DNA of 64,000 bases from Gammaproteobacteria bacterium. Lineage in GTDB: Bacteria; Pseudomonadota; Gammaproteobacteria; Enterobacterales; Aeromonadaceae. The position numbers and the translations under genes are program-made. The notes beneath the pieces are model-generated. The model made no database searches. It saw only the letters and a list, made by a program, of their open reading frames with translations, and was not told the DNA's origin. Shown here piece by piece: positions 4,483 through 45,694 of the stretch (position 1 is the stretch's first letter; every line of letters starts with the position of its first letter). The DNA lies in NCBI GenBank assembly GCA_018222825.1, contig JAAEZO010000003.1, positions 1 through 64,000 of the forward strand, read 5' to 3'.

Positions 4483-4599
4483 AAACAACTCCTGTGATCG
4501 GTGCCGAAGGCGGCGCAAAACAGAAAAGGACAGGAAGACTCCTGCCTTGTAACGACGAGCAAAGAAAAACGGCAGCGAATACCGCCGTGTCAGGGAACC

Positions 4600-5028: not shown

Positions 5029-5169
5029 TCGCTACTACTCCCTTTCCTGCCTGGCAGGTACTGAAAACCGCGTTTCGTTACACGTGAAATCTCTTGACAC
5101 CAAAGCAAATAGTCACACAAGCCATGGCAAAATACAGTAGAATATGCCGCCCGTTCTGGCGTACCAGGC

Positions 5170-5217
5170 GGTTTGGTAAAGTCCGCATTATGCCCCGGTT
5201 GTCGATTTTACCAAACC
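5170..5217 (+). promoter_or_regulatory. Long inverted repeat / hairpin in the purH leader
   Basis: GGTTTGGTAAA(GTC)...(GAT)TTTACCAAACC: 11-bp perfect stem, about 14 bp with one G-U, ending 31 nt before the purH ATG. Confidence 0.6.
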
Positions 5218-5248
5218 CCCCGATTGATCGTTAAAGGAACGAGAACCC

Positions 5249-6832: not shown

Positions 6833-6902
6833 CAGACAGGAGACCGCGCTCAACGCCAGACCGGCGGCTCGAGCGCAACGGGGGGCGGAAGAGTTAGCCT
6901 AA

Positions 6903-6967
6903 GCCGACCGTGACATGCCAGGGATGGCATGTCCGAGCCTACAGGGATGTATCTACGGCGTGTCGGC
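6903..6967. repeat. REP-like intergenic nested hairpin between purH and purD
   Basis: Inner perfect stem GACATGCCA-GGGA-TGGCATGTC (6912-6933) inside outer GCCGAC...GTCGGC (6903-6908/6962-6967). Confidence 0.4.
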
Positions 6968-7033
6968 GTGGCGAACACTTGCGTCCCCTGGCTCCCCTCC
7001 TTCGTTTGCTTTGATAATTTTAAGGAACAGACC

Positions 7034-8320: not shown

Positions 8321-8348
8321 CCGTCAGCCGCTGAACGACAGATACCCA

Positions 8349-8374
8349 AAAGAGGCCATCAGGCCTCTTTTTTT
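8349..8374 (+). terminator. Intrinsic terminator downstream of purD
   Basis: AGAGGCC-atca-GGCCTCT followed by a T run. Confidence 0.85.
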
Positions 8375-8505
8375 ATGGGGCGACCAGGCTCAGGCGACAA
8401 AGGCAGCCGACACCTTCTGCATCAAAACCGCCTACTCTCTAATCAGGTGCCAGTTGCGATTCTGTAACGCATCTATTCAGCAATCAGCCTTCAAGGAGAG
8501 AACCG

Positions 8506-8874
8506 ATGTTAAAGCAAGCGCTAGTCAGTTTATCCCTGATCATCAGCCTGCAGGCGCTGGCGGCGCCGGTACAGCTGGCCGATAGCACGGAGGGAGAAAT
8601 ACTGACCAACGAGGCCGGCATGAGCCTGTATGTATTTGATAAAGACCGGCCCGGAATGAGCAACTGCAACGACAGCTGTGCGGATAACTGGCCACCGCTG
8701 GCCGCCACCGCCGATGACCAGGCCGACGGCGACTACGGCATCGTCACCCGGGCCGACGGCAGCCTGCAATGGAGTTACAAGGGACAGCCGCTGTACCTGT
8801 GGAAGCAGGACCGGCAAGCGGGTGATATGTCGGGAGACGGCAAGTTCGGTGTCTGGCACCTGGCAAGGCCCTGA
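8506..8874 (+). CDS. COG4315-like secreted repeat protein (predicted lipoprotein/exported)
   Basis: N-terminal signal; LADSTEGEILTNEAGMSLYVFDKDRPGMSNCNDSCADNWPPL and WSYKGQPLYLWKQDRQAGDMSGDG. Confidence 0.8.
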   Translation: MLKQALVSLSLIISLQALAAPVQLADSTEGEILTNEAGMSLYVFDKDRPGMSNCNDSCADNWPPLAATADDQADGDYGIVTRADGSLQWSYKGQPLYLWKQDRQAGDMSGDGKFGVWHLARP

Positions 8875-8887
8875 TGGAGCCGCGACA

Positions 8888-8917
8888 TAAAAAAAGAGCC
8901 CTGGCGGGCTCTTTTTT
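8888..8917. terminator. Bidirectional intrinsic terminator between convergent genes
   Basis: AAAAAAGAGCCC-tggc-GGGCTCTTTTTT. Confidence 0.85.
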
Positions 8918-9272
8918 ATAACTGATGTCCCAGCCAGTCGGCAAACCCCGGCAGGGCGCCGAGATGGGGCAACAGAGTCAGATTGACGTCGGGATACTGC
9001 TCCCGCTTCTGTACCACTACCGAGGGCAGGTCATTGACCACATGCCGGCCTTCGGCCAGAAAGTACGGGAACAGCGTGATGTCTTTGGCACCGGCGGCCA
9101 CCTGCTGGTCAATCGCCTGATCCAGAGCTGGCTCGGCCAACTCCCAGAAAGCATGATTCATCAGCTCGAAGCGCCCGGCCATGGCGGCAGTCAGGCGCTG
9201 TGCAAACGCCGCAATTTCTTCGTTGGCCGCGGCCCGGCGACTGCCGTGGGCAACCAGAATAAATCCCTTCAT
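8916..9272 (-). CDS. CbiX/SirB-type sirohydrochlorin chelatase-like protein
   Basis: MKGFILVAHGSRRAAANEEIAAFAQRL; ITLFPYFLAEGRHVVNDLP. Confidence 0.85.
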   Translation of the reverse strand: MKGFILVAHGSRRAAANEEIAAFAQRLTAAMAGRFELMNHAFWELAEPALDQAIDQQVAAGAKDITLFPYFLAEGRHVVNDLPSVVVQKREQYPDVNLTLLPHLGALPGFADWLGHQL

Positions 9273-9700
9273 GTTACTCCTGCTTTTCGCTGTACCCGCG
9301 GCGCCTGGGCCGCCAGTACGTCCACACAATAATCCCAGCTCGCAATGCGATAATGCTGAATATCCTCATCCAGATGCGTGCCCTGACTCTGCTGGTGAAA
9401 CCAGGTCAGAAAACGAGAGGGGGTAATCAACTGGATCTGACTGTCGATGTCAGTCTCGTCATCGTCCATAAAATCCAGCACATCGGCGCCTTCGAGCACT
9501 CGGTAACCAAACAGATGATCAAATGTCAGCTGGTAGATAACCTGAGGCGGGGTGTCGATATCGGTGGGCATGCCCATCGACAGCACCAGTTGGCCATTCC
9601 ACACATTCTGATGCAGTTCGGTCAGCATCAGACCCTTGGTCAAGCCCCGGGCACCGGCCCATGGCGTTGCCACCTGTCGAATCGCGTTCACTTCCATCAT
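9269..9700 (-). CDS. Hypothetical protein, coupled upstream of the CbiX-like gene
   Basis: 143 aa; stop overlaps the start of the chelatase-like gene. Confidence 0.65.
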   Translation of the reverse strand: MMEVNAIRQVATPWAGARGLTKGLMLTELHQNVWNGQLVLSMGMPTDIDTPPQVIYQLTFDHLFGYRVLEGADVLDFMDDDETDIDSQIQLITPSRFLTWFHQQSQGTHLDEDIQHYRIASWDYCVDVLAAQAPRVQRKAGVT

Positions 9701-9774
9701 AGCCTCCCTTGAGCGGGAACAGACTCGGTTCAGTTATAACAATCGAAGGACAAGAGGAGCAAGCGGAGAATAAA

Positions 9775-9797
9775 AAAACCCGGCGAAAGCCGGGTTT
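9775..9797 (-). terminator. Intrinsic terminator of the hup gene
   Basis: AAACCCGGC-gaaa-GCCGGGTTT with a T run on the minus strand. Confidence 0.85.
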
Positions 9798-9805
9798 GGA
9801 AGCAG

Positions 9806-10078
9806 TTACTTGATGGCGTCTTTCAGCGCCTTGCCGGCTACAAAAGCGGGCACATTGGCCGCGGCAATCTGGATTTCGTTACCGGTCTGGGGGTTACGAC
9901 CGGTACGAGCTGCGCGATGGTTTACCTTGAAAGTACCAAAACCAACCAATTGCACCGGATCGCCTTCTTTCAGACTTTGGGTGATACCGTTGAGTACTTC
10001 TTCCAGTGCTGCCTTGGCCTGAGCCTTGCTCAAATCTGCCTTGGCGGCAATTGCATCGACAAGCTGAGTCTTGTTCAT
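9806..10078 (-). CDS. hupA: HU family DNA-binding protein
   Basis: [66 protein letters not shown]. Confidence 0.95.
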
Positions 10079-10364
10079 AGGGGATCCTTTCTCACTTGGC
10101 ATTAAGCGGTTGCCCACTCTATTCAAATTTCAGGCTCAAGCAAAGCCTTTGTCTTGAGGCCAAATATCAAGTGCCGTTGTTTTGTTCAGAAACTGCGGAA
10201 AACATCACATTACCGCAAGGGAAAGTGCCTGTGGCCTGCGGCTACAAACGACAACAGCATAGCCGACCCCTTTCGTGACTACCAGAGTTCTCACCCGTAT
10301 TCGGCACAAAATAAGGAGGATGCTGCTGCAAAATACCGCGACAGCTTCCACCCATATTCCAAAT

Positions 10365-11228
10365 TCAGGATTCAAGATCCTTGATCACCACGGTGGAATC
10401 GCAGCGACCATGACCGTCGGCCAGCAGTTTTTCATAGACCTTGTGCACATGTTCGGTCAGCGGCAGCGTCAATCCCTGCTGCTCGGCCTCATCCAGGCAG
10501 ATACCCAAATCCTTGTGCATCCACTGGGCGGCAAAACCGAAGTCGAACTTGCCCTCGGCCATGGTCTGGGCCCGGTTCTGCAACTGCCAGCTCTGGGCGG
10601 CACCACCGGCCAGGACGTCAATCAGGGTGGGAATATCCAGCCCGGCCTTCTTGGCGATCATCAAGCCTTCGGCAATGCCCTGCACAGCGCCAATCACGCA
10701 AATCTGATTCACCATCTTGCAGCGCTGACCGGCCCCCACCGGGCCCAGTCGGGTCACTTTTTTGCCATACGCTGCCAACACCGGCGAGGCTTCGGCCACA
10801 TCCGCCTCCGCGCCGCCCACCATCACCGTCAGGGCACCGTTTTCGGCTCCCAGCTGGCCACCGGACACCGGCGCATCGATGAAGCGCGCACCGGCTTCAT
10901 TGGCCGCCACTGCCAGTTCTTCTGCCAATATGGCCGAAGTGGTGGTGTGATCCACCATCAAGGCACCCGGCTTGATGCCGGCCAGCACGCCGTCGTCACC
11001 ATAAACCACGGCTCGCACGTCGTCATCGTTGCCGACACACAGCATCACCATGTCGGCGTCTTTGGCGGCCAGCGCCGGGGTCGCGGCGCTGGTGCCGCCA
11101 TGGCGGGACACCCAGTCGGCCGCCTTGTCCTGGTTGCGGTTATAGACGCACACCTGGTGTCCGGCCTGCTGCAAATGACCGGCCATGGGAAAGCCCATTA
11201 CGCCCAGCCCGATAAATGCCAGTTTCAT
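10365..11228 (-). CDS. NAD(P)-dependent beta-hydroxyacid dehydrogenase (3-hydroxyisobutyrate / tartronate semialdehyde reductase family)
   Basis: MKLAFIGLGVMGFPMAGHLQQAGHQVCVYNR; FIDAPVSGGQLGAENGALTVMVGG. Confidence 0.9.
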   Translation of the reverse strand: MKLAFIGLGVMGFPMAGHLQQAGHQVCVYNRNQDKAADWVSRHGGTSAATPALAAKDADMVMLCVGNDDDVRAVVYGDDGVLAGIKPGALMVDHTTTSAILAEELAVAANEAGARFIDAPVSGGQLGAENGALTVMVGGAEADVAEASPVLAAYGKKVTRLGPVGAGQRCKMVNQICVIGAVQGIAEGLMIAKKAGLDIPTLIDVLAGGAAQSWQLQNRAQTMAEGKFDFGFAAQWMHKDLGICLDEAEQQGLTLPLTEHVHKVYEKLLADGHGRCDSTVVIKDLES

Positions 11229-22608: not shown

Positions 22609-23190
22609 TTAAGTCAGCGTGAGAAAATTTTGCAGCAGTTGATGACCGCCTTCGGTCAAAATGCTTTCCGGGTGAAACTGTACGCTGTGCAGTGGCAGGG
22701 TGCGGTGGCGCATGCCCATGATCTCGTCCCGCTCGCCGGTTTCACGCTCGGTCCAGGCGGTGACGTCGAAACAGTCCGGCAGGCTGGCAGACTCGACCAC
22801 CAGCGAATGATAACGGGTTACCGTGAGCGGATCCGGCAAGCCGGCAAACAGGCCCTGCGCCGTATGGCGAATGGCCGAGGTCTTGCCGTGCATCACCTGG
22901 CGCGCCCGCACCACCTGGCCGCCAAACGCCTGGGCAATGGCCTGATGCCCGAGGCAGACGCCGAGGATGGGCAAACGACCGGCAAAGTGTTCGATGGCCA
23001 TCAGTGAAATGCCCGCCTCGTTTGGCGTACAGGGGCCGGGCGAAATCACCAGTCCGTCCGGTTGCAACGCGCCAATCTCGTCCAGAGTTATCTCATCGTT
23101 ACGGCGAACCAGCACCTCCTGCCCCAGCTCACCGAAATACTGCACCAGGTTGTAGGTAAAAGAGTCGTAGTTATCGATCATCAGCAGCAT
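22609..23190 (-). CDS. pabA: Aminodeoxychorismate/anthranilate synthase component II
   Basis: [48 protein letters not shown]; class I GATase. Confidence 0.93.
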
Positions 23191-23214
23191 ATTGCACTTA
23201 TCTCTTTGATTTTA
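23171..23214. repeat. att site (left): 44-bp perfect direct repeat overlapping the pabA 5' end
   Basis: TTATCGATCATCAGCAGCATATTGCACTTATCTCTTTGATTTTA; identical copy at 52452-52495. Confidence 0.93.
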
Positions 23215-23512
23215 TTGAAACAGTAAAGTCTTACATTGCTTTGATACCCGCTCTGATACCCGCAATTTCATTTGATACCCAGGACCGAGACCTCAACAGC
23301 ACACATGAGGAAGCGGTATTTTCGCATCTATCCCGTTGGCGTCAAACTTCAAGCTGTGGACGGTCAGCATAACCAAGTTTCCAGAGCCAACGACAGAGAA
23401 CTACCAGCCCAAGTAATGGGCTACCGAAACAAAGGCGTAATCACTCTGCCACTTCAGTTCTACCAGAGATCCCACCCCATTCAACCTTACGACAATGCAA
23501 TGAGCTATAACA

Positions 23513-24508
23513 TCATATCCCTTTCCCCTTCAGCCTTTCGTATTCTTTCTTTATAAGCATTTCTATTGTTCTATGTATCGTCAGATCATAGTGCCCCACC
23601 AACTCATCGAGTTTTTTTCCAACATCTACATCTATATATGTGTTAATACTTCTCTTGGATGCTTTTTTCTTTCTAAACTTTTTTTGCCCCCACGCATTTT
23701 TAATTTTATAGACAAACAGTTCTTTACTTGAATCAGGAACAAGCCAGTTGTAAAAAAAAGCATAAGAATATAAGTATTTTTCATGTGGAACTATCGGGGG
23801 TGTTATATAAGTATCATCTATAAATTCCCACTTATACTTCACAAGAATATTAGAGTAAATGTAATCCCACACCCATTCACATTGCTCCTCATTTTCCCTA
23901 TCCAACCATCTTAACTGATCGATTCTACTGTAGATATTCGTCCATTCTATGTGGGCTGAAGAAAGCAGTTTACTTTTATATTCAAAATAATCTGAGAACC
24001 TATTAAGGTACTCTATCACCAACCGTAACCTAGCTTCATGCGATGAGGGCTCAGGTATTATATCAAAACCAAGATTTTTATATCCAAGGGGTTCCCAAAT
24101 AATTTTTTCAACACTACCATATTTGGTGTGCATTGTTGAGCCTGGCATATAATTATCATTTACATGGTGCCTTCTGAAGTAATCATGAAAGCAACCAACT
24201 CTAATCTTAACCCATAACCAGCAGCATGCTTCAGGACTCTCTCTAAGCCAGTTAACACTATCACTGGAAAAGCATTGTGATTTAGCATTGGAGATAACCT
24301 GCCTAATAAACTCATTACGCATTTCTGTGTTTTTAATATACCTATGCACAGACCTGTTGATATCGCTCACGTAACCTTCAACATTAGGCCAGCACGTCTC
24401 CGAACCATTAAGCATCCCTACTCTCACCAAATAGTCTCTGCAGACTTTAAGCAGGGTTATATCTTTAATCTTCAACAGCGGGTCACCGCCTGTGGTATGA
24501 ACTGCCAT
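23513..24508 (-). CDS. Hypothetical protein (331 aa), AT-rich, possible C-terminal ribbon-helix-helix-like segment
   Basis: Long ORF in low-GC DNA; C-terminus SINTYIDVDVGKKLDELVGHYDLTIHRTIEMLIKKEYERL. Confidence 0.6.
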   Translation of the reverse strand: MAVHTTGGDPLLKIKDITLLKVCRDYLVRVGMLNGSETCWPNVEGYVSDINRSVHRYIKNTEMRNEFIRQVISNAKSQCFSSDSVNWLRESPEACCWLWVKIRVGCFHDYFRRHHVNDNYMPGSTMHTKYGSVEKIIWEPLGYKNLGFDIIPEPSSHEARLRLVIEYLNRFSDYFEYKSKLLSSAHIEWTNIYSRIDQLRWLDRENEEQCEWVWDYIYSNILVKYKWEFIDDTYITPPIVPHEKYLYSYAFFYNWLVPDSSKELFVYKIKNAWGQKKFRKKKASKRSINTYIDVDVGKKLDELVGHYDLTIHRTIEMLIKKEYERLKGKGI

Positions 24509-24854
24509 AAAAAAAACCTCAACTATAAAAACATTAAGAGGCTCTTACCTCGCTGAGCACCCCTAACACAAAAAATAATAATTAAAAAAATCCACAAGCG
24601 CCCGACCTACGACATCAAGCAGTAGAAGAGAAAATACCAGAGTGGACACCTAGCCATCTGGAGCCTCAAACCATAAAAATTACTACGTAAATTTTTACCA
24701 TTTTTACAAGATTTTTCAAACTAAATTTTGTAAAATTATCTAATTTTTACAGGCTTATTTACTATCGTTAAAAATGACAACAAACACTTAAAATCAGTGA
24801 CTTACAGGTAAACCTCAGCTAAGTTAAGCTTATGCTTCTTACTTTATTGAGCTC

Positions 24855-24984
24855 ATGGTGGTTAACTCCAGAGCGCCCTTCCTTCAGCATTGCTCGTTGA
24901 GGCTTATGATTTTCCATGCGTCCCCTTTTGTTAGCTGAGCCCCAGGCTTCAGTGACGTGTCGGTTTGTCTAATATAACCACCAT
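24855..24984. other. Structured non-coding region closed by a 10-bp perfect inverted repeat
   Basis: ATGGTGGTTA (24855-24864) and TAACCACCAT (24975-24984), upstream of the Gp2-like gene, no ORF. Confidence 0.4.
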
Positions 24985-25085
24985 CACTCTATAGCCTTAG
25001 AGATGCATACCAATCACTCCCACCCATAGGGGTGGGATAACGAATCCAAATATCATCAGAAATATATTATTACATCGAGGCCTAC

Positions 25086-25108
25086 TCCTATGGACTACGA
25101 CCATAGGA
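25086..25108 (+). promoter_or_regulatory. Hairpin at the ribosome-binding region of the Gp2-like gene
   Basis: TCCTATGG-actacga-CCATAGGA perfect 8-bp stem, about 10 nt before the ATG at 25119. Confidence 0.5.
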
Positions 25109-25118
25109 AGAAAGAGGA

Positions 25119-25787
25119 ATGAACAGCAAACTAAGCCAAGCAGCAAACGCATCCTCAACAGTAATCAGTCATCGGGGAGAGCTGAACCAGAGCCACCTTT
25201 CTCGGATCAAGGAAACCCTAGAAAAAGCACTGACCGAACACCCGAGAACACTTGCCATAAGGGTGGATTTGAGGATGCCTTCAGTTTCAGCTTGTCACCT
25301 GGAGAGAGACAGCCCTGTATTTTTTACCAATAGCAAAGAGGAGCTCATCTCCAGGTTTTTCGCCTCACTAAAAGCTCAGCTGAATCATGACCAGAGCAAG
25401 AGAATTAAAGCCGGCGTCAGGGTGCATAAGTGCACCTTGCGGTACATATGGGCAAGAGAAAGGAGTGAAAATCATAAGGAGCACTATCATGTCATGCTAT
25501 TTCTAAACAAGGACACCTATCGCTTCATTGGGAGTTATAAAAACGAAAGCAACGTACTGGTCAATATGGTCCGTAAAGCATGGAATAGTGCATTAGGTCT
25601 AGATACAGATGATAGAAACCACTTGGTTCACATCCCTAAAAACCCCTTCTACCAGATGAACAGAAACGATCTTATCAACCACCTCCAGGAATATCAGGAG
25701 GTTTACTATCGAGCCAGTTATCTAGCAAAGATTGAGAGTAAAGACCGCAGTGATGGACGGCGATGCTTTGGCTGCTCACAAAAGTAG
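25119..25787 (+). CDS. Inovirus Gp2-type / YagK-YfjJ family replication-associated protein
   Basis: 222 aa; RYIWARERSENHKEHYHVMLFLNKDTYRFIG (HxH-like motif) typical of the inovirus Gp2 family. Confidence 0.8.
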   Translation: MNSKLSQAANASSTVISHRGELNQSHLSRIKETLEKALTEHPRTLAIRVDLRMPSVSACHLERDSPVFFTNSKEELISRFFASLKAQLNHDQSKRIKAGVRVHKCTLRYIWARERSENHKEHYHVMLFLNKDTYRFIGSYKNESNVLVNMVRKAWNSALGLDTDDRNHLVHIPKNPFYQMNRNDLINHLQEYQEVYYRASYLAKIESKDRSDGRRCFGCSQK

Positions 25788-25881
25788 AGCGGTACCACCC
25801 TTAGCCACTCCGCTACCAGATACCTAACGTAAATTTGTACACAGCTGGCATATGTCATGACCAAAACAACCGGAGTTCGTC

Positions 25882-26085
25882 ATGAGATTAATCAAACTTA
25901 AAGAAGTCATGGATTGCACTGGGCTGGCTCGCTCTACTATCTACAAGTTCATATCCGAGGATAGCTTCCCTAAACCTGTCCCCCTGGGTGAGCGTGCTGT
26001 GGCCTGGATAGAAGGTGAAATCCAGGAATGGATTCTCGAACGTATCGCTCTGCGAGACGGCAACACCACCAAGCCAAACCAGTAG
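25882..26085 (+). CDS. AlpA family phage/island transcriptional regulator
   Basis: 67 aa; MRLIKLKEVMDCTGLARSTIYKFISEDSFPKPVPLGERAVAWIEGEIQEWI. Confidence 0.9.
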   Translation: MRLIKLKEVMDCTGLARSTIYKFISEDSFPKPVPLGERAVAWIEGEIQEWILERIALRDGNTTKPNQ

Positions 26086-26213
26086 CAAGTCTATAGCCCT
26101 GCAAGTAGCCCATTCAAGTTTATTTCAAAAACATATCACCCTACTGATATTTGCAGGGCCTCACAGCCCAATCCCCTCGTCTGGACCTCCCAGGCATCAC
26201 TGGAGTATTCGTT

Positions 26214-27167
26214 ATGTCTCACCTCATCGAATCCATGGCCTACGTGGGCCAAACGCCCTGGCATGGACTGGGCAATCAGCTCAGTCGCCAGCAGCCGCTG
26301 TCGGTCTGGCTAAAGGAGGCCGGTATGGTCTGGTCCATCAAGCAAAGCGATGTCATGTTCAACGCCGCCGATGACGGCCTGTTCCTGCGCACTCACGATG
26401 GCGCTCAGGTGCTGTATCGCTCCGATACCCTGGCCCCGCTGTCGGTAGTGTCCAATCGCTACAAGGTGGTGCAGCCCAAGGAGGTGCTGCATTTCTATAA
26501 AGACCTGGTGCATGCCGGTGGCTTTGAGCTGGAAACCGCCGGTGTGCTCAAGGGCGGGCGCAAACTGTGGGCGCTGGCCAAAACCGGCCAGGCAGACAAG
26601 CTCAAGGGGAACGATCACATCAAAGGCTATCTGCTGCTGGCCACCAGTTGCGACGGCACTCTGTGCACCACGGCACAGTTCACCTCTGTGCGAGTGGCGT
26701 GCAACAACACTCTGCAGGTGGCTGTTAACCAGAAAGCCGGAGCCATCAAGGTGCCCCACTCCACCGTGTTTGACCCCAAGCAGGTAAAAGAGGCTCTGGG
26801 GCTGGGCCTGTCGAGCTGGGATACCTTCATGCGCGACCTGAAGGCCATGAGCCAACGCCCGGTCTCGCCAGTAGAAGCTCACCGCTTTTTTGCGGAAGTA
26901 CTGGACGACCCTTGCGCCACCGATAGCGATCTGTTGCCCTCCAAACCCATGCAGCAACTGCTGAGCCTGTACGACGGTGCTGGTATGGGCGCAGACCTGG
27001 CTTCCAGCAAGAACACCGCCTGGGGCCTGGTGAACGCCATGACCGAATTTGTGGACCATCACCGCCGTGCCCGCAGCCAGGATAACCGGCTCGACTCCGC
27101 CTGGTTTGGGCTTGGCGCTCAACTGAAACAAAAAGCCTACGGCCAGGCCATGGCCCTGCTTTCCTGA
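26214..27167 (+). CDS. DUF932 domain-containing (phage/plasmid-like) protein
   Basis: MSHLIESMAYVGQTPWHGLGNQL; LSVVSNRYKVVQPKEVLHFYKDLV. Confidence 0.88.
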   Translation: MSHLIESMAYVGQTPWHGLGNQLSRQQPLSVWLKEAGMVWSIKQSDVMFNAADDGLFLRTHDGAQVLYRSDTLAPLSVVSNRYKVVQPKEVLHFYKDLVHAGGFELETAGVLKGGRKLWALAKTGQADKLKGNDHIKGYLLLATSCDGTLCTTAQFTSVRVACNNTLQVAVNQKAGAIKVPHSTVFDPKQVKEALGLGLSSWDTFMRDLKAMSQRPVSPVEAHRFFAEVLDDPCATDSDLLPSKPMQQLLSLYDGAGMGADLASSKNTAWGLVNAMTEFVDHHRRARSQDNRLDSAWFGLGAQLKQKAYGQAMALLS

Positions 27168-34747: not shown

Positions 34748-37700
34748 ATGAAAATCATAGACAACATCAATCACCTGCTGGGTGATGAGCTGAAAGGCAC
34801 GCTCACACCTGACTCCAGGCTGAAAATTGCGGCGTCCTGCTTCTCTATCTACGCCTATGAAGCGCTCAAAAAAGAGCTGTCGGCCATCGACTCGCTGCAG
34901 TTCGTTTTCACCTCCCCCACCTTCGTGGCCGATAGCGTCACCGACAAGCTGAAAAAAGAACAACGGGAGTTTTTCATTCCCAAGGCCGGGCGGGAAAAAA
35001 ACCTCTATGGCACCGACTTTGAAATTCACCTTAAAAACAAGCTGACCCAAAAGGCCATCGCCCGAGAATGCGCCAGCTGGATGCGGCGCAAAGCCACCTT
35101 TAAATCGAACAGCACCCATGCCCCCATGCAGCCCTTCGCCGTGGTTTCCGAAGGTGCCGAGAGCACCCTTTTTGCCCCCATCAACGGCTTTACCGCCGTG
35201 GACCTGGGTTACCAGCAGGGCGATGCGGTTTCCAACTTTGTCCACAAAATGGAGCAACCCGAATTCACCGCCCAGTACCTGACGCTGTTCGAGCAAATCT
35301 GGAACGACCCGGAAAAACTGCAGGATGTGACCGACACCATCTGCCAGCACATCGAATCGGTATACAAGGAAAACTCGCCCGAGAAAATCTACTTCATCAT
35401 GCTGTACAACATCTTCAAAGAGTTTCTGGACGACCTCAATGAAGACGTGCTGCCCAACGACAGAACCGGCTATCAGGACACCCTGATCTGGAACAAGCTG
35501 TTCAACTACCAGAAAGACGCCGCCACCGGCATCATCAACAAGCTGGAAAGCTATAACGGCTGCATACTGGCCGACAGCGTGGGCCTGGGTAAAACCTTCA
35601 CCGCCCTAGCGGTAATGAAATACTACGAATTGCGCAACAAGTCTGTGCTGCTGCTGTGCCCCAAAAAGCTCGCCGACAACTGGCTGAACTACAACCGCAA
35701 CCTCACAACCAACATCTTCGCCAAAGACAGATTCAGCTACCATGTGCTCTGCCATACCGATCTCAGCCGCACCAGCGGCGAGTCTTTCGGCACTCCGCTC
35801 AATCGTATCAACTGGGGCAACTACGATCTGGTGGTGATCGACGAGTCCCACAACTTCCGCAACAACGACGCGGTAAAGGACCGGGAAACCCGCTACCAGA
35901 AACTGATGAACAAGGTCATTCGGGAAGGGGTTAAAACCAAGGTACTGATGCTCTCCGCCACCCCGGTCAACAACCGCTTCACCGATCTGCGCAATCAGCT
36001 GGCGCTGGCCTACGAAGGCGACTCCAGCCAGCTGACCAAACACCTGAATACTACCAAGAGCGTTGAGCAAATCTTCAACCAGGCCCAGGCCGTGTTTAAC
36101 AACTGGTCAAAACTGGAGCCGGAGCAAAGAACCGCCAGGGCCATACTGGACGCACTGGACTTCGACTTTTTTGAACTGCTCGACAGCGTCACCATCGCCC
36201 GTTCCCGCAAGCACATTCAGAACTTTTACGACACCACCGACATAGGCCATTTTCCCGAGCGGCTTAAACCACTGTCTTACCATTGCCCGCTCACCACTCG
36301 CGTCGATGTGCTTGGCTTCAACCAGATATTCGAACAGCTCAGGCAGCTTAAGCTGTCCATCTATGCCCCAGTCAGCTTCATACTGCCCAGCCGGCTGAAA
36401 AAATACGAAGAGCTGTACGACACCGAGGTAGCGGGCGGCGGTGCCAAGCTGAAACAGGCCGACCGGGAAAAAAGCCTGGTAGCGCTGATGACCACCAACC
36501 TGCTCAAGCGACTGGAAAGCTCGGTAGAAGCCTTTCGAAGCACCCTGCAATCGCTGCAAGACAACCACCAACGACTGCTGGGGATTATCGACGAGTTCTA
36601 CCGGCGGGATGGCGTAACCGAAGTCAGCAGCCTGGCGGATGCCCTGGATGCCATAGAAGCAGACGAAGACGAGCTGCCGTCCTATCACGACATGGAAATT
36701 GGCAACAAAATCAAAATCAAGCTCGCCGACATGGATCTCACCTCCTGGCAGCAGGACATGCAGGGTGATCTGGAGCTTATTGCCGACCTGCTTGCTGTGA
36801 TGCAAAAGGTCACCCCTGCCGAAGATGCCAAGCTGCAGCACCTCAAGGCACACCTGGCACAGAAAATGGCCAGCCCGATCAACCCGGGCAACCGCAAGGT
36901 CATTATCTTTACCGCCTTTGCGGATACCGCCCGCTACCTGTATGAGCAGCTGGCACCGGAGCTGAATGGCAGCCTCGGCATTCATTCCGCCATGGTTACC
37001 GGCGGCACCGGACTGCCCAAAACCACCCTGAAAACGCGGCGCAAGGGCTACGACATTCAGGAAGTGCTGACCCTGTTTTCGCCCCTGTCCAAGGCCAAGG
37101 CCAGCGTGCTGCCCGACGAGCCGGCCGAAATAGATCTGCTGATTGCCACCGACTGTATTTCCGAAGGACAAAATCTGCAGGACTGCGACTACCTAATCAA
37201 CTACGACATCCACTGGAACCCGGTGCGCATTGTGCAGCGTTTTGGCCGGGTGGATCGTATCGGCTCTCCCAACCAATGCATTCAGCTGGTGAACTACTGG
37301 CCCGATATTTCCCTGGATGAGTACATCAACCTCAAGGAGCGGGTTGAAAGCCGCATGACCATAGTGGACGTGACCGCCACCGGGGACGACAACGTGCTCA
37401 GCAGCCAGGCCAACGACATGGCCTATCGCCGCGAACAGCTCAAGCGCCTGCAGGAAGAAGTCATTGAATTGGAAGATCTGAAAACCGGTGTGTCCATTAC
37501 CGATCTGGGCCTGAACGAATTTCGTATGGACTTGCTCGCATTGGTCAAACACTACGGCGAGCCCCTTAACCAACCCAGCGGCATGCACGCCCTGGTGCCC
37601 GCCAACCCGGCACTGGGGCTGGAGCCCGGCGTGATCTTTGCGCTGCGCAACCTTAACAACAGCGTGACCACCGACCAGCAAAACCGGCTGCATCCCTATT

Positions 37701-38041
37701 ACCTGGTGTACGTTGACGAGCAGGGCCATACCCTGGCCAGCCATATCGACGTAAAACGGCTGCTCGATATGCTGCGCACCTGCTGCAAGGGCCGGCAAGA
37801 GCCCATCGATGCTCTGTGCCGACGCTTTAACGAAACAACCCAAGACGGCCAAAACATGGCGCACTATTCCGAACTGCTCAGTCAGGCCATTGGTAGCATG
37901 ATGGCCGTGAAGGAAGAAAAAGACATCGACAGCCTGTTTGGCGGCGGCAGCACCTCAGCGCTGGTTAACCGCATTCAGGGCCTGGACGACTTTGAGCTGC
38001 TGGCCTTTATTGTGGTGCAGGCACAGGAGGGCAATTTATGA
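34748..38041 (+). CDS. SNF2/RapA-like helicase with N-terminal (degenerate) PLD-like domain
   Basis: Walker A ADSVGLGKTFTALAVM; DESHNFRN; SATPVNNRFTDL; C-terminal helicase ATDCISEGQNLQDCDYLINYDIHWNPVRIVQRFGRVDRIGS; N-terminus resembles PLD-helicases. Confidence 0.88.
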   Translation: MKIIDNINHLLGDELKGTLTPDSRLKIAASCFSIYAYEALKKELSAIDSLQFVFTSPTFVADSVTDKLKKEQREFFIPKAGREKNLYGTDFEIHLKNKLTQKAIARECASWMRRKATFKSNSTHAPMQPFAVVSEGAESTLFAPINGFTAVDLGYQQGDAVSNFVHKMEQPEFTAQYLTLFEQIWNDPEKLQDVTDTICQHIESVYKENSPEKIYFIMLYNIFKEFLDDLNEDVLPNDRTGYQDTLIWNKLFNYQKDAATGIINKLESYNGCILADSVGLGKTFTALAVMKYYELRNKSVLLLCPKKLADNWLNYNRNLTTNIFAKDRFSYHVLCHTDLSRTSGESFGTPLNRINWGNYDLVVIDESHNFRNNDAVKDRETRYQKLMNKVIREGVKTKVLMLSATPVNNRFTDLRNQLALAYEGDSSQLTKHLNTTKSVEQIFNQAQAVFNNWSKLEPEQRTARAILDALDFDFFELLDSVTIARSRKHIQNFYDTTDIGHFPERLKPLSYHCPLTTRVDVLGFNQIFEQLRQLKLSIYAPVSFILPSRLKKYEELYDTEVAGGGAKLKQADREKSLVALMTTNLLKRLESSVEAFRSTLQSLQDNHQRLLGIIDEFYRRDGVTEVSSLADALDAIEADEDELPSYHDMEIGNKIKIKLADMDLTSWQQDMQGDLELIADLLAVMQKVTPAEDAKLQHLKAHLAQKMASPINPGNRKVIIFTAFADTARYLYEQLAPELNGSLGIHSAMVTGGTGLPKTTLKTRRKGYDIQEVLTLFSPLSKAKASVLPDEPAEIDLLIATDCISEGQNLQDCDYLINYDIHWNPVRIVQRFGRVDRIGSPNQCIQLVNYWPDISLDEYINLKERVESRMTIVDVTATGDDNVLSSQANDMAYRREQLKRLQEEVIELEDLKTGVSITDLGLNEFRMDLLALVKHYGEPLNQPSGMHALVPANPALGLEPGVIFALRNLNNSVTTDQQNRLHPYYLVYVDEQGHTLASHIDVKRLLDMLRTCCKGRQEPIDALCRRFNETTQDGQNMAHYSELLSQAIGSMMAVKEEKDIDSLFGGGSTSALVNRIQGLDDFELLAFIVVQAQEGNL

Positions 38042-38796
38042 CCCAGTCCTCTCAGAATGAACTCTCGCAACCACAGAGCTGGAAGTTTCCGCCACCAACG
38101 CGCTTTGACAAGGTGATCCCCAAAACCAGGTTCTATCAACAGGCCACCATAAACAGCGCCCTGCAGGCCCGCTTTGTGGAAGAGCTGGAGCAGATCATCT
38201 GGGCCTGCAAACTGGCGCCTAACACGGTAAACTTGCCCGCGACCGAAGCGGTAACCGAAATCCAGGTGTTTACCCTCAAACTGAAAGGTGAATCCTTGTC
38301 TGAAGAGGTGGTGGCCGCCATTGACAGGGCCATTCCCTTTCCCATTATTTTTGAGCTGCAGCGCACTCTGGGGGAAGACCGGCAGCAGCTGCGCTATATC
38401 GCGGCCTACAAGCGTAAAAGCGCCGCCGATGCCGCCAGCTGGGTGCGTTCGGAATACCTGGATTCATGCTGGATGCCGGCCAGCGCGCCCCGCAGCGCTC
38501 TGCCCGCCGCCATTAACATGGAGCGGCTTTACCAGGCCCTGCTGGCCAGCCTGCTGCCCATTCCGGCACGAGCTGATGAGAGCATAGACGAGGCTATTGC
38601 CAGGCTGGGCCGCCTGCGCAAGCTGAACAAGCAGATAGCCGTGCTGCGTAAAAAAATCGGCACCGAAAAACAATTCAAGCGCAAGGTCGAGCTGCACCGC
38701 GAGCTCAAGGCCCTGCAACACGAACAGAGCACCCTGAGCCAAACCGAGGGCGCCTCCGCCCCTGAGGGCCGGAGTGATTCCAACAGTTACTGTTGA
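38038..38796 (+). CDS. DUF4391 family protein
   Basis: 252 aa; ATGA overlap with helicase; KVIPKTRFYQ...PFPIIFELQR...YIAAYKRK; coiled-coil C-terminus. Confidence 0.75.
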   Translation: MTQSSQNELSQPQSWKFPPPTRFDKVIPKTRFYQQATINSALQARFVEELEQIIWACKLAPNTVNLPATEAVTEIQVFTLKLKGESLSEEVVAAIDRAIPFPIIFELQRTLGEDRQQLRYIAAYKRKSAADAASWVRSEYLDSCWMPASAPRSALPAAINMERLYQALLASLLPIPARADESIDEAIARLGRLRKLNKQIAVLRKKIGTEKQFKRKVELHRELKALQHEQSTLSQTEGASAPEGRSDSNSYC

Positions 38797-38821: not shown

Positions 38822-40792
38822 ATGGACCAACTGAAGATGCACAGCCCCGACATGACTCAGCAGAACATCGAAAAAATTCGGGCGTTGTTTCCCAACTGCG
38901 TCACCGAGTCCCACACCCCAGACGGCAGCCTGCGTCTGGCGGTGGACTTTGATCTGCTCAGACAAGAGCTGTCCGGATCCATAGTAGAAGGCCCTCAGGA
39001 TCGCTATCACCTCAACTGGCCAGGCAAGCGCCAGGCGCTACTGACCGCCAATGCTCCCATTGCCAAAACCCTGCGCCCCTGTCGGGAAGACAGCGTCAAC
39101 TTCGACACCACTCAGAACCTCTTTATTGAAGGGGATAACCTGGATGCATTAAAACTGCTGCAGGAAACTTATCTGGGCCAAGTCAAAATGATCTATATTG
39201 ATCCGCCCTATAACACAGGCAAAGACTTCATTTATAAGGACAATTTCACTTCAGACCAAGCGGCGCATGAGCTGGCAGCTAGTGAAAGAACCGAAGAAGG
39301 CACACGACTGGTTGCAAATCCAGAAGGTAACGGTCGTTTCCATAGCAACTGGCTAACAATGATCACCCCCAGACTTAGACTCGCAAGAAATTTTTTAATG
39401 CGAGACGGCGCTATTTTCGTGTCTTGTGACGAAGGTGAACAACCTCGACTTCGTCTGATTATGGATGAGATCTTTGGTCAATCTAATTTCATTGCAGATA
39501 TGGTTTGGGCTGCCGGTAGAAAAAATGACTCTCGGTTGGTTTCAGTCTCTCATGAATATATAGTCTGCTATGCACGTGACTCTGAATACTTAAGGGAAAA
39601 TAAAACCACTTGGCGTCAACGCAAAAAAGGCCTGGATGAAATATATTCTCAACATGACCGGCTTAATCGACAACATGGCAACGACTATCATGCAATGACC
39701 AAGGGCATGAAGGAGTGGTATCGTTCATTACCAGACAGCCACCCCTCCAAAGCTCATAAGCACTACGCTCATGTTGATGACAGAGGCCTGTATTTCCCAG
39801 ACAATATTTCTTGGCCTGGAGGTGGTGGTCCTAAATATGAAGTTCTTCATCCAGAAACCCAAAAACCCGTAAAAGTTCCTTCGCGTGGTTGGATGACAAG
39901 TGATCCTAAGCGCATGCAGCAATGGATTGATGAAAATAGGGTTCACTTTGGGGATGATGAAAACTCAGTTCCTTGTATAAAGAGTTACTTAAAAGATAAA
40001 GAGCTACAAACCCCATATAGTGTTTTTTATCAAGACGGTCGCGCTGCATCAAAGCGCCTGCGCACACTGATGGATGGTGACTTATTTGACTTTCCTAAGG
40101 ACGAGTTAGTTCTTCAAGAGCTTGTGGAGATGCTGACTGGCGGTGAGGACATTATTCTTGACTTTTTTGCAGGTTCGTCAACAACTGCACACTCTATAAT
40201 GCTTCAGAATGCAATTGATGGAGCCAATAGAAAATTCGTTATGGTGCAGCTTAATGAAAAAATAACTGATGGCTCCGCAGCATTAAAAGCTGGTTTTAAA
40301 GAAATATCTGAGGTCAGCCGTGAGCGTATCCGCCGAGCCGGTAAAAAAGTCCTGGAAGGCGAATGCCATAAAGACTGGAACCAGGATGTTGGCTTCAGGG
40401 TCTTAAAAGTCGATACCAGCAATATGGCCGATATCTACTACTCCCCCGATGCTATCGGCCAGGGCAACCTAGATCTGCTGGTGGACAATATCAAGCCGGA
40501 TCGCACCGAAGAGGACTTGCTGTTCCAGGTACTGCTGGACTGGGGCATCGACTTGACCCTGCCCATTCGCAAAGACACCCTGTGCGGCAAAACCGTCTAC
40601 AACGTGGACGATGGCGCTCTTGTCGCCTGCTTTGACCGCAACATCACCGAAGATCTGCTCAAGGCCCTGGCCGAGCAGGCCCCGCTGCGGGTTGTGTTCC
40701 GGGATGACGGCTTTGCCACCGACAGCTTTAAAATCAACGCCGAGCAAATGTTCAAGCAACTGGCTCCCGGCACCGACGTTCGGGCTATTTAA
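38822..40792 (+). CDS. Type III restriction-modification DNA methyltransferase (Mod)
   Basis: Beta-class order: DPPYNTGKDFIYKDNF (motif IV) then ILDFFAGSSTTAHSIM (motif I); FIEGDNLDALKLLQETY. Confidence 0.93.
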   Translation: MDQLKMHSPDMTQQNIEKIRALFPNCVTESHTPDGSLRLAVDFDLLRQELSGSIVEGPQDRYHLNWPGKRQALLTANAPIAKTLRPCREDSVNFDTTQNLFIEGDNLDALKLLQETYLGQVKMIYIDPPYNTGKDFIYKDNFTSDQAAHELAASERTEEGTRLVANPEGNGRFHSNWLTMITPRLRLARNFLMRDGAIFVSCDEGEQPRLRLIMDEIFGQSNFIADMVWAAGRKNDSRLVSVSHEYIVCYARDSEYLRENKTTWRQRKKGLDEIYSQHDRLNRQHGNDYHAMTKGMKEWYRSLPDSHPSKAHKHYAHVDDRGLYFPDNISWPGGGGPKYEVLHPETQKPVKVPSRGWMTSDPKRMQQWIDENRVHFGDDENSVPCIKSYLKDKELQTPYSVFYQDGRAASKRLRTLMDGDLFDFPKDELVLQELVEMLTGGEDIILDFFAGSSTTAHSIMLQNAIDGANRKFVMVQLNEKITDGSAALKAGFKEISEVSRERIRRAGKKVLEGECHKDWNQDVGFRVLKVDTSNMADIYYSPDAIGQGNLDLLVDNIKPDRTEEDLLFQVLLDWGIDLTLPIRKDTLCGKTVYNVDDGALVACFDRNITEDLLKALAEQAPLRVVFRDDGFATDSFKINAEQMFKQLAPGTDVRAI

Positions 40793-40801
40793 GGAGTGGT
40801 G

Positions 40802-41908
40802 ATGAAAAGTGCCTTAGACAAGCTGAGCATCGGGGGCTTCAAGTCGATTCGCGAGCTAAACGACTTTGAACTGCGCCCGCTCAACGTGATTGTGGGTGCC
40901 AACGGTGCCGGCAAAAGCAACCTGCTGTCGTTTTTCAAAATGCTGCGCGCCCTGATGGACGGCACCCTTAACCGTTATGTGCGCGACAACGGCGGTGCCA
41001 CCGACCTGCTATTTAACGGTAACAAGGTCACGCAGAAGATGACCTTTGAAGCCCGCTTTGGCGACCGCGGGTTTCGCTTTAACCTGGTGCCCACCCCTAG
41101 TAATGATTGCGCCATCGAAGACGAAGCCCGCTACTACAGCCACAGCCAAAGCGGCTGGTGGCTGCTGGGCGACAGCAACGACGGCAAGTCCAGAATGGTG
41201 GCAGAAGTGGAGCAGAATGCCGCCAATGCCAAATACTCTCGCCCGGTCTTTGAGGCCATTGCCTCCTGGCAGATTTATCACTTTCACGATACCAGCAGCA
41301 CCGCCGCCATGCGCAAGTATGAAATCGTGGAGTATGACCGGGTGCTGGATACCGATGCCGCCAATATCGGGCCTTTTTTACTTAATTTGAAGACTCACCA
41401 CGCCAGCGCCTATCAAAGCATTGTGGATGCCGTGCGCCTGGTTACGCCTTTTTTCGACGACTTTATTCTGCAGCCCAGAATCAGGGGTGCCAAGGAAGAG
41501 GTCAACATCAGCTGGCGGCAAAAAGGCTCCGGCTACCCCATGCAGCCCTATCACCTTTCCGATGGTTCTATTCGCTTTATTTGCCTGGCCACCGCCCTGC
41601 TGCAACCGGATCCCCCCGCCACCATTATTATCGACGAGCCCGAGCTCGGCCTGCACCCGGCGGCCATTGTGATCCTGGCCGAACTAATTCAGCAGGCGGC
41701 TACCCGCACTCAGGTGATAGTGGCCACCCAATCGCCGGCCCTGCTCGACCAGTTTGCGGTAGAAGACATTGTTGTAGTCAAGCGTAAGGACGGTGCCTCC
41801 ACCTTTGAGCGTCTGAACGAACAAGATTATGCCAGCTGGCTGGAAAGCTACTCACTGGGAGAACTCTGGATCAAGAACGTGATCGCCGGAGGGCCTGTGT
41901 ATGAATGA
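40802..41908 (+). CDS. AAA15/AAA21-type (OLD/SMC-like) ATPase
   Basis: GFKSIRELNDFELRPLNVIVGANGAGKSNLLSFFKML; YHLSDGSIRFICLATALL; TIIIDEPELGLHP; VIVATQSPALLDQF. GTG at 40796 is an alternative start. Confidence 0.9.
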   Translation: MKSALDKLSIGGFKSIRELNDFELRPLNVIVGANGAGKSNLLSFFKMLRALMDGTLNRYVRDNGGATDLLFNGNKVTQKMTFEARFGDRGFRFNLVPTPSNDCAIEDEARYYSHSQSGWWLLGDSNDGKSRMVAEVEQNAANAKYSRPVFEAIASWQIYHFHDTSSTAAMRKYEIVEYDRVLDTDAANIGPFLLNLKTHHASAYQSIVDAVRLVTPFFDDFILQPRIRGAKEEVNISWRQKGSGYPMQPYHLSDGSIRFICLATALLQPDPPATIIIDEPELGLHPAAIVILAELIQQAATRTQVIVATQSPALLDQFAVEDIVVVKRKDGASTFERLNEQDYASWLESYSLGELWIKNVIAGGPVYE

Positions 41909-42587
41909 TTACATCGAGGTGGTGGCCATTGTTGAGGGCAAGACCGAGCAGATCTTTATTGAATCGGTGCTGGCGCCCTATCTCGCCAATAAGATGATTT
42001 TCATGCACGCTACCCAGGTTTCCAAGCCCGGTCAAAAAGGCGGTGATGTGCGCTTTGAGCGGGTGCGGCGCGATCTGGAAGCTCACCTCAAACAACGCCC
42101 CAACACTTATGTAACCACCTTTGTGGATTACTACGGTCTGCGGGAATGGCCGGGGCTGGATGAAATCACACCCCAGGCCAGCCCGGCGGACATAGCCGAA
42201 TGCCTTAATAACGCCACCCTCAAGCTGGTTTCACAGCTGTTTTCCGCCCAGCAGGCCGAGCGCCGCTTTGTACCTTTTGTGGCCCTGCACGAGTTTGAAG
42301 CCTTGCTGTTCAGCGAGCCGGCCATTTTGGCCCGGGCACTGGGAGTAGCAGAGCAGGAAGTGGCCAAGGTGGTGCGTGCGTGTGGCGAGCCTGAGGCCAT
42401 TAACAACAGCCCGCAAACCGCCCCGTCCAAGCGTCTGAATAACTGGTCTGCCACCGGCAAGTTTGCCAAAACCACCCAGGGCATCACCATTGCCCAACAG
42501 ATTGGCATTGCCCGTATACGAGAGCAGTGCCCGCTGTTCCATCGCTGGCTACACCATTTTGAAACCCTGGTAGGAGATCAGGCATGA
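41901..42587 (+). CDS. DUF4276 family protein, Toprim-like
   Basis: [55 protein letters not shown]; 8-nt overlap with the ATPase. Confidence 0.82.
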
Positions 42588-45500
42588 AACTGAAATTCAA
42601 GGTTCAACCCTATCAGACCCAGGCGGTAGATTCGGTGGTGGACTGCTTTGTCGGCCAGCCACTGAGCTCGAACATAAACTACCGTATCGATCCCGGTGTA
42701 TCCACCAACAAGCACGGCCAGGCCGGCTGGAATCTGTCGGATCAGGATGGCTTCAAGAACGCCGATCTGGTGCTGACCGAACAGCAAATTCTGGAAAACA
42801 TTCACCAGGTACAAAGCGGCCAGAACCTGCCCCTTTCCCCCGGGCTCAAGGTCTATCACGATGCCAACGGCAAGGAAAAGCCCGCCAGTTATCACCCCGG
42901 ATCCGATATCAATCTGGATATCGAGATGGAAACCGGTACCGGCAAGACCTATTGCTATATCAAGACCATTTTCGAGCTGAATCAGAAATATGGTTGGAGC
43001 AAGTTCATCATGGTGGTGCCCAGCATCGCCATTCGTGAAGGGGTGCACAAGTCATTGCAGATCACCTCCGAGCACTTTGCCGAGAGCTACAACAAAAAAG
43101 CACGCTTTTTTATCTACAACTCCCGGCAGTTGCACCAGTTGGAAAGCTTTTCGTCCGACAGCGGCATTAATGTCATGGTGATCAACATTCAGGCCTTTAA
43201 CGCTGCCGGCAAAGACAACCGACGCATTTACGAAGCACTGGATGATTTTCAGTCCCGTCGCCCTATTGATGTGATCAGCGCCAACCGCCCTATCCTGATC
43301 CTGGATGAACCCCAGAAAATGGAAGGCCAAAAAACCCTCGACGCCTTGGCCAAATTCAAACCGTTGATGGTGCTGCGTTATTCCGCCACTCACAAAACAA
43401 CGCATCACAAGGTGCATCGACTGGATGCACTTGACGCCTACAACCAGAAACTGGTCAAGAAAATTGCCGTGCGCGGGATTTCGGTCAGGGGCCTGGCCGG
43501 CACTACCGCCTATCTATATTTGGAGTCCATCGAGATTTCCAAGAAGGCACCGGTGGCAAGGGTGGAAATGGAAGTTCGTCAGGGTACTGGCATCAAGCGC
43601 GTGATCAAACGGCTGAAGCTCGGTGACAACCTGTTTGACGAAAGCAACGAGTTGGAGCAATACCGTGGCTTTGTGGTAAGCCAGATAGACGCCAACAGCG
43701 ATACCGTAGAATTTCTTAACGGCCATCTGCTGCAGGCGGGTGAAGCCACCGGCGACGTGACCGAAGACACCATTCGACGCATTCAGATCCGCGAAACCAT
43801 TCGGGCCCACTTCGAGAAAGAACAGGTACTCCATGCCCAGGGTATCAAGGTGCTGTCGCTGTTTTTTATCGACGAAGTGGCCAAGTACCGGGACTACGAA
43901 GCGGAAGACGATAAAGGCGAATATGCCCGTATTTTCGAGCAAGAATACCAGAAAATAAAAGATGAATACCTGTCTCAGCTGCCGCTGGAAAACCATGCTT
44001 ATCGGGACTATCTGGAAAAAATCACCCCGGATCGCACCCACAACGGCTATTTCTCTATCGACAAGAAAACCAGGCGTCTGAAGGATCCCAGCGTCAGGGC
44101 TCGAGGCGAAGATGCCGGGCTGTCCGATGATGTGGATGCCTATGATCTGATTCTGAAGGACAAGGAAAAGCTGCTGTCGTTCGAGGAAGATACTCGCTTT
44201 ATTTTCTCTCACTCGGCGCTACGCGAAGGCTGGGACAATCCCAACGTCTTTGTGATGTGTATGCTCAAGCACAGTGACAACACCATATCGCGCCGCCAGG
44301 AAGTGGGCCGGGGCCTGCGCCTGTGTGTAAACCAGCACGGCGACCGCCAGGATCATCCCGCCACCGTTCACAACATCAACGTGCTGTCGGTGATTGCCAG
44401 CGAAAGCTACAAGGACTTTGTCGGCAACTTGCAGCGTGAAATCAGCGAGTCACTGTCGGCCCGTCCGCGCAAGGCAGACGTGGATTACTTCACCGGCAAG
44501 ATGATGACCACCGACCAGGGCCAGGTTGAAGTCACCGCCGACCTGGCCCGGCAGATTTACCGGTACCTGGTGAAAAACGATTATACCGACGATAACGACG
44601 CCATCGCCCCGGCCTATCATTCTGCCAAGGCAGAAGGCAGCCTGGCAGCGCTGCCGGCAGAGCTTGAGCCTTATCGGGATCAGATCCTTACTCTTATCGA
44701 TGGCGTGTTCAGTGCTGCTGCCTTGCCGGATATGGGCGACGACCGCAAGCCCAAAACCAACCCGCTCAACGACAACTTCCACAAAAAGGAATTCCAGTCG
44801 CTGTGGGCACGGATCAACAAAAAGGCCGTTTATAAGGTGGACTTCGACTCCAGCGAGCTGATTGCCAACTGCATTCGCGTGCTCGACAAGGAGCTGAAGG
44901 TCACTCCCCTGCAATACATCATTCAGGCCGGCGTGCAGCGGGACAATCTGACCGACGAACAACTCAAGTCGGGCCAGGGGTTTGAGCTTTCTAACACTCA
45001 GGGTGAGTATCACAGTGCCAGCGCTTATTCTGGTGTTAAATACGATCTGGTGGGCAAGCTGGCCACCGACACCAACCTGACCCGCAGAACCATTGCCGCC
45101 ATTCTGAGCAAAATTCAGCCTGCGGTATTTGGCCAGTTCAAGCAGAACCCGGAGCATTTTCTGGCGGAAGCCACCCGTCTAATCAAGGAGCAAAAGGCCT
45201 CAGTGATTATCGAAAAGCTCTCTTACGATGAAACCGACGACCGTTACGATACGGATATCTTCACCGCAGCCCAAAGCCGGCAAGACTTTTCTCTGGCCGG
45301 CAACCGGCTGAAGAACCATATCTACGATTACGTGATCACCGACTCCAATATAGAACGCAAATTTGTGGCCGAGCTGGACACCAACTCGGATGTAGTCGTG
45401 TACGCCAAGCTACCCCGTGGTTTTCTTATCCCCACCCCGGTGGGCGACTACAACCCGGATTGGGCCATCGCCTTCAGGGAAGGCAGCGTCAAGCATGTGT

Positions 45501-45694
45501 ATTTCATCGCCGAGACCAAGGGCAGCCTGTCTACCCTGGAGCTACGCGGCATAGAAGAGCGCAAGATCGACTGCGCCCGTCGTTTCTTCGACAAAATCAG
45601 TGGCCAAAGCCCGGGCGAAAACGTGAAGTACGACGTAGTCACCAGCTACAGCGAACTGATGGATGTGGTGGGTGGTAAGGTTGTAACCAACTGA
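42584..45694 (+). CDS. Type III restriction enzyme Res subunit (DEAD/DEAH helicase with PD-(D/E)xK nuclease)
   Basis: [73 protein letters not shown]-terminal [11 protein letters not shown]...[12 protein letters not shown] overlap with upstream gene. Confidence 0.93.

Follow-up and report, generated by a model that had tools for sequence, protein, structure and literature searches.

Why should a type III DNA methyltransferase gene, mod, whose two ends resemble the GC-rich operon around it, be AT-rich in its middle? Swapping the middle of such a gene is a known bacterial way to change the DNA sequence that is attacked, and the original prediction held that the target recognition domain (TRD) region had been exchanged horizontally while the ends and neighbours were conserved. 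We address this question in a stretch of 64,000 nucleotides (the window), which is contig C324 of a draft genome of 330 contigs and 84.8% completeness. The rpoB region of the window is 96.3% identical to that of Oceanisphaera litoralis, 88.2% to Oceanimonas smirnovii and 88.5% to Zobellella taiwanensis, and the host is therefore close to Oceanisphaera.

The operon and the composition of mod

The mod gene sits in an operon of six genes:

34748..38041, + strand: SNF2/DEAD-type helicase gene, head of the operon (Pfam SNF2-rel_dom, Helicase_C, ResIII)
38038..38796, + strand: DUF4391 gene (PF14335, E=4.8e-53)
38822..40792, + strand: mod, type III beta-class DNA methyltransferase of 656 aa, mosaic (PADLOC MTase_III, E=1.3e-220; PF01555)
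40796..41908, + strand: AAA_21 ATPase gene (HEC-01A-like), between mod and res (PADLOC HEC-01A, E=1.6e-138)
41901..42587, + strand: DUF4276 protein gene (HEC-01B-like; PADLOC HEC-01B, E=2.5e-71; PF14103)
42584..45694, + strand: res, the type III restriction endonuclease subunit, without mosaic structure (PADLOC REase_III, reported E of 0)

Both subunits have the features of a type III system. Mod is a beta-class enzyme with a DPPY motif and a TRD placed between motifs IV-VIII and X/I (EcoP15I alignment, MTase_III), and its product matches EcoP15I Mod (4zcf_A; E=2.1e-84, phmmer alignment). The adjacent Res combines a helicase core with an endonuclease domain (REase_III; ResIII and RE_endonuc domains).

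The six-gene operon is itself horizontally mobile. Of 23 genomes sampled from the GTDB genus, only 4 carry it, and its identity between the window and Oceanimonas or Zobellella (about 90-91%) is above that of rpoB (88%), whereas its identity to Oceanisphaera litoralis (92-93%) is below that of rpoB (96%). On a contig from a viral collection (L159), a related whole operon adjoins a serine recombinase, and the Mod encoded there is a 63% relative. A tRNA gene marking an integration site was not found in the 64-kb window.

The interval between mod and res varies among loci. In the window, it is occupied by the AAA_21 and DUF4276 pair (HEC-01A/B, 40796-42587); in a Shewanella-family genome (G499), mod and res are a mere 300 bp or so apart; and further loci carry a gene for a DUF262 or RNA-binding-domain protein near mod or between mod and res. 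The interval thus looks like a cargo slot for further defence genes. Within the AAA gene, identity dips to 74-77% at window positions 41181-41430 in the comparison with Oceanisphaera litoralis only, possibly a second small recombination patch in that strain.

Across mod, the GC content falls from about 0.55 to 0.43 over roughly 39,100-40,350 and then returns to 0.57. When a low-GC segment was sought within 3 kb either side of the gene, the best-supported one was 39,122-40,311 (GC 0.428 versus 0.558), with a log-likelihood gain of 34.7, whereas none of 100 block shuffles exceeded 13.9. The predicted AT-rich patch at roughly 39140-40350 is thereby confirmed. Among 32 long open reading frames of the window, the set used for this comparison in place of genome-wide codon statistics, mod also has by far the largest step in GC3 (log-likelihood ratio 41.0; next 10.2, median 4.6): GC3 is 0.37 in residues 101-518 and 0.74 outside. 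The accompanying claim of altered codon use (TTA, AGA, ATA) holds, most clearly for two of the three codons: TTA (7/370 in the patch, 5/3269 elsewhere in the operon; p=5e-5) and AGA (7/370 versus 7/3269; p=2e-4) are strongly enriched and ATA only weakly (6/370 versus 22/3269; p=0.06). By contrast, res has no GC3 step. Elsewhere in the window, the most AT-rich stretch lies at 22752-26259, with a 1.2-kb GC minimum of 0.356 at 23604.

Ends and centre of mod differ in ancestry

From helicase to res, the operon is about 85-98% identical in nucleotide sequence to those of Oceanimonas, Oceanisphaera and Zobellella nearly throughout, including the helicase gene (90-92%) and res (mostly 83-99% along its length). 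At 39,181-40,431, identity to the same three relatives is only 40-63%. The collapse of identity in this interval only, which had been proposed as a check among close orthologues, was hence observed against all three. The pattern is reversed in comparisons with the mod genes of a Neotabrizicola shimadae plasmid (L105) and of the Shewanella-family genome G499 (L125): here, the ends are 56-70% identical at the nucleotide level in most blocks, while the centre reaches 63-96% amino acid identity per block and the cassette overall about 70% nucleotide and 80% amino acid identity.

Informative sites locate the change. Family-type sites outnumber donor-type sites by 41 to 1 at 38822-39240 and by 66 to 2 at 40376-40792, whereas donor-type sites prevail by 128 to 15 at 39241-40375. 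Phylogenies of the two parts conflict in the same manner, as the tree of the ends groups the window with Oceanisphaera, Oceanimonas and Zobellella and the tree of the centre groups it with L105 and L125, each with support of 100/100. The opposite placements are rejected by AU tests, with p=1.6e-66 in the ends tree and 2.8e-4 and 8e-5 in the centre tree, although these p-values are descriptive because the clades were chosen after the identities were known. The gene is therefore a mosaic allele on both counts: its close orthologues have conserved ends and a divergent centre with a step at defined boundaries, and its centre is nearer to a distant-lineage mod than to its own lineage. Its open reading frame is intact, and its parts are the following:

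38822..39221, + strand: native N-terminal chassis, with the N-terminal domain and the start of the MTase domain (85-97% nucleotide identity within the family, 56-81% to the cassette donors)
39200-39211, + strand: motif IV DPPY, inside the native N-terminal chassis
39222..39256, + strand: left breakpoint zone, directly following DPPYNTGKDF (the last family-type site that is clean lies at 39220, and sites are mixed up to 39287)
39257..40366, + strand: imported cassette B, with the MTase motifs after motif IV, the TRD and motifs X and I-III (informative sites, identities)
39614..40000, + strand: TRD equivalent, residues about 265-393 (EcoP15I TRD 263-384, PMC4490356, mapped via the phmmer alignment)
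40160..40186, + strand: AdoMet-binding motif I (DFFAGSSTT), within the cassette (aligned to EcoP15I DFFAGSGTT)
40368..40413, + strand: right breakpoint zone, end of the MTase domain before the C-terminal domain (last donor-type site 40367; family-type run from 40414)
40414..40792, + strand: native C-terminal chassis, linker and Res-contacting C-terminal domain (90-97% within the family, 56-68% to donors)

Alignments to the relatives stop at the left edge at 39253 (Oceanimonas, Oceanisphaera) or 39235 (Zobellella) and resume at the right edge from 40376-40382. The predicted coordinates of the patch were nearly right, with the homology breakpoints lying instead at about 39,222-39,256 and 40,368-40,413; the first 100 bp or so of the AT-rich stretch belong by homology to the native chassis, and the relatives show similar GC there.

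In EcoP15I Mod, residues 14-60 make up an N-terminal domain that contributes to the dimer interface, the MTase domain comprises residues 62-262 plus 390-516, the TRD spans 263-384 and a C-terminal domain (539-644) contacts Res (PMC4490356). Placed on this structure by alignment, the imported block of about 1.1 kb runs from residues ~135-145 to ~516-531 and contains the MTase core after DPPY together with the TRD. It is about three times the size of the TRD and ends where the MTase domain ends. Given that it reaches from just after DPPYNTGKDF as far as the MTase-domain end, the parts that remained native are the dimerisation and Res-docking ends. The predicted swap of the TRD region was thus correct in that the TRD lies within the block, and too narrow in that the block extends from after motif IV to the MTase-domain end; an exchange of the TRD only was rejected, since most of the catalytic core is included.

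Explanations for the patch

We consider it very probable that the patch is an imported specificity cassette, i.e., that recombination made a mosaic in which cassette B replaced cassette A while the chassis stayed native, which would change specificity and preserve the pairing with Res. Horizontal exchange with conserved ends and neighbours, as originally proposed, is supported by the crossed identities and by trees that conflict at full support. The starting point would be an Oceanisphaera-type host whose type III restriction-modification operon, six genes long, is mobile. Conserved stretches directly behind DPPY on the left and at the end of the MTase domain on the right would then have served for a homologous recombination that exchanged Mod residues ~135-145 to ~516-531 for the equivalent block from a distantly related mod allele, and the composition step would reflect a cassette B that was more AT-rich than the host. 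Because Oceanimonas and Oceanisphaera both carry A, replacement of A by B is the simplest direction. The native C-terminal domain would still dock Res and the native N-terminal domain would still form part of the dimer interface; since this chassis was retained, we infer that the resident Res can operate with the imported cassette. Given that type III specificity lies in the TRD of Mod, a single event should retarget methylation and cleavage together, and a changed DNA specificity of the window Mod is what these alignments predict.

The GC step requires caution. If type III mod genes have an AT-rich centre for intrinsic reasons, such as amino acid make-up, weak codon selection or AT-biased mutation in a fast-evolving domain, no exchange need have occurred here, and we indeed found a centre of lower GC3 than the gene's own ends in 77 of 80 full-length Mod homologues and in 40 of 43 from AT-rich hosts. 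The centres of the Oceanimonas, Oceanisphaera and Zobellella genes are lowered as well. After removal of redundancy, 63 of 67 genes still have the lower centre, and the shift persists at fourfold-degenerate sites, where it averages -0.20, so that amino acid make-up does not account for it. In genes with GC-rich ends the mean shift is -0.31, and the centre follows the ends with a slope of 0.43-0.50; the shift measured in the same way is about zero for res (-0.005), helicase (+0.02) and DUF4391 (0.00) in the same loci. Nine further genes, mostly from GC-rich hosts (eight on plasmids, one from a viral collection), gave 7 negative values with a mean of -0.10 (p=0.02); left out of the composition test were a Sphingobium plasmid match broken by insertion sequences (L169) and a Variovorax match (L168). 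The shift of the window mod, -0.33, is among the largest in the family. The GC step that was put forward as evidence of exchange is thus present but insufficient on its own: since the synonymous shift of the centre is common to nearly all Mod homologues, we rejected it as sufficient proof of a swap, and such a step within a mod gene neither dates nor by itself demonstrates a recent import. Intrinsic composition is nonetheless a very improbable account of the window mod, where identity falls from about 87% to about 55% within some 20 residues at both edges rather than gradually, where identity rises towards distant taxa and where the trees conflict.

The same trees, with their incompatible placements of centre and ends, bear on the idea that fast diversifying selection on the TRD of a single, vertically inherited gene might mimic a foreign centre. 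Although the TRD is the most variable part in all relatives, the conserved catalytic segments that lie between the breaks and the TRD (residues 145-260 and 400-515) also fall to about 40-65% nucleotide identity to the family, yet match the distant L105 and L125 at up to 96% amino acid identity per block, and synonymous composition shifts too; we give this explanation the least credence. A draft of this fragmentation and completeness could also have merged reads from two different mod alleles where their sequences are conserved. We regard such a chimera as highly unlikely, given that the reading frame is kept over both junctions and that like swaps occur in other assemblies, including named isolates and a complete plasmid. 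Moreover, many sites near both junctions distinguish the family from the donors (10-14 of 15 positions match per block), which leaves little exact overlap for a mis-join.

Where cassette B came from is constrained by the searches. Its best relatives, L105 and L125, have GC3 of 0.48-0.53, compared to 0.36 in the window cassette, and a near-identical donor was not found in the genomes, plasmids, phage records or viral contigs searched. Phage records held no Mod above 60% identity, E. coli genomes no place covering 80% of the query and viral contigs a single relative at 63% (L159). Among 130 genomes of the genus of G499, the cassette occurs at 79% in G499 only (next best 47%), and the best match in 399 genomes of the phylum was 46%. 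A silent donor copy was not found in the same genome, which contains one match at E<=1e-30 and one other N6_N4_Mtase gene. With the best relatives at about 80% amino acid identity, the import was either not very recent or came from an unsampled donor.

Cassettes in other mod genes and in known systems

Cassettes recur across lineages. The tree of the centre (support 100/100) unites cassette A of Oceanimonas and Oceanisphaera with that of Rhodobacter ruber, Marivita, Mesorhizobium, Billgrantia, a Synergistota MAG and two members of the Thermodesulfobacteriota, one of them a MAG; A hence occurs in three phyla. Cassette C is common to Zobellella and a genome of the same family (G432). Rhodobacter ruber (A) and Neotabrizicola (B) share 93% nucleotide identity in the ends and 48% in the centre, with breaks at residues ~141 and ~520 that coincide with the boundaries of the window mod. 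This matching exchange places A and B on two unrelated chassis, in Aeromonadaceae and Rhodobacterales. In 25 pairs of genes with conserved ends and different centres, which are not independent, most left breaks lie close to residues 134-145 or ~221-224 and most right breaks close to ~443-448 (motif I) or ~518-530. Such clustering fits published accounts of type III mod recombination at sequences encoding conserved motifs, as outlined in PMC3983042, and of en bloc exchange of recognition domains (PMC3311624).

Two further loci contain more than one mod copy. At L152 (G646:C45), three complete tandem mod genes (4376-6247, 6821-8692 and 9269-11221) lie beside a single res; their N-terminal chassis are 80-99% identical, their C-terminal parts mostly similar and their recognition regions different, and one Res may serve several Mods, judging from this arrangement. 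At L153 (G475), a second and apparently disrupted mod copy (7181-9251) with two overlapping reading frames of 372 and 339 aa lies beside an intact one.

The GC3 of cassette A is 0.43-0.58 irrespective of whether the ends are at 0.46 or 0.85. We tentatively suggest, while regarding it as somewhat doubtful, that the specificity cassettes of type III systems belong to an AT-rich pool that phyla share and that does not adjust to its hosts, with slow chassis, fast cassettes and few fixed boundaries; AT-biased mutation under weak selection is one alternative explanation for the family-wide shift. A published report of this shift was not found in the literature searched, in which the lower-GC centre of modA12 is described (PMC3311624). 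If the shift is upheld, specificity cassettes circulate faster than they adapt to hosts. The window mod provides an unusually clean natural experiment of a restriction system changing its target in one step, with three cassettes on one chassis within a bacterial family and the same cassettes on distant chassis. Cassette sharing predicts which strains share methylation motifs and where a functional chimeric Mod can be cut.

The exchange of type III TRDs is already published. In the modA alleles of the Neisseria and Haemophilus influenzae phasevarions (Gawthorne et al. 2012), a swapped central region lies between conserved 5' and 3' ends, transfer between species occurs en bloc with identity reaching past the boundaries of the recognition domain, and the centre of modA12 has 28% GC compared to 40% on either side (PMC3311624). 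The window mod shares the conserved ends, the swapped centre of lower GC, the en bloc transfer between species and the identity beyond the recognition domain. However, DPPY and FxGxG are described in the conserved regions of modA (PMC3311624), whereas the block of the window mod includes motif I and most of the catalytic core, and its cassette pool spans phyla. Mobile TRDs are likewise known from the type III mod genes of Helicobacter pylori (Furuta and Kobayashi, summarised in PMC3983042); compared to that summary, the present case has the same two cassettes on two unrelated chassis with matching boundaries, and its breakpoints sort into two modes, one long and one short. In domain order, the window Mod equals EcoP15I, to which it aligns over residues 46-620 (4zcf; PMC4490356). 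EcoP15I is one characterised enzyme, however, and the recognition domain of EcoP15I is too diverged to reveal the target of the window Mod. Type III systems with an extra helicase or ATPase gene 5' of mod are also known (PMC8259958), and the window operon resembles them in its helicase-like gene upstream of mod and res. It differs in the added DUF4391 gene and in the AAA/DUF4276 pair, and its Mod has DPPY (expected m6A), unlike the characterised m4C enzymes of those systems. Next to these systems, the window mod is a new and unusually well-resolved case.
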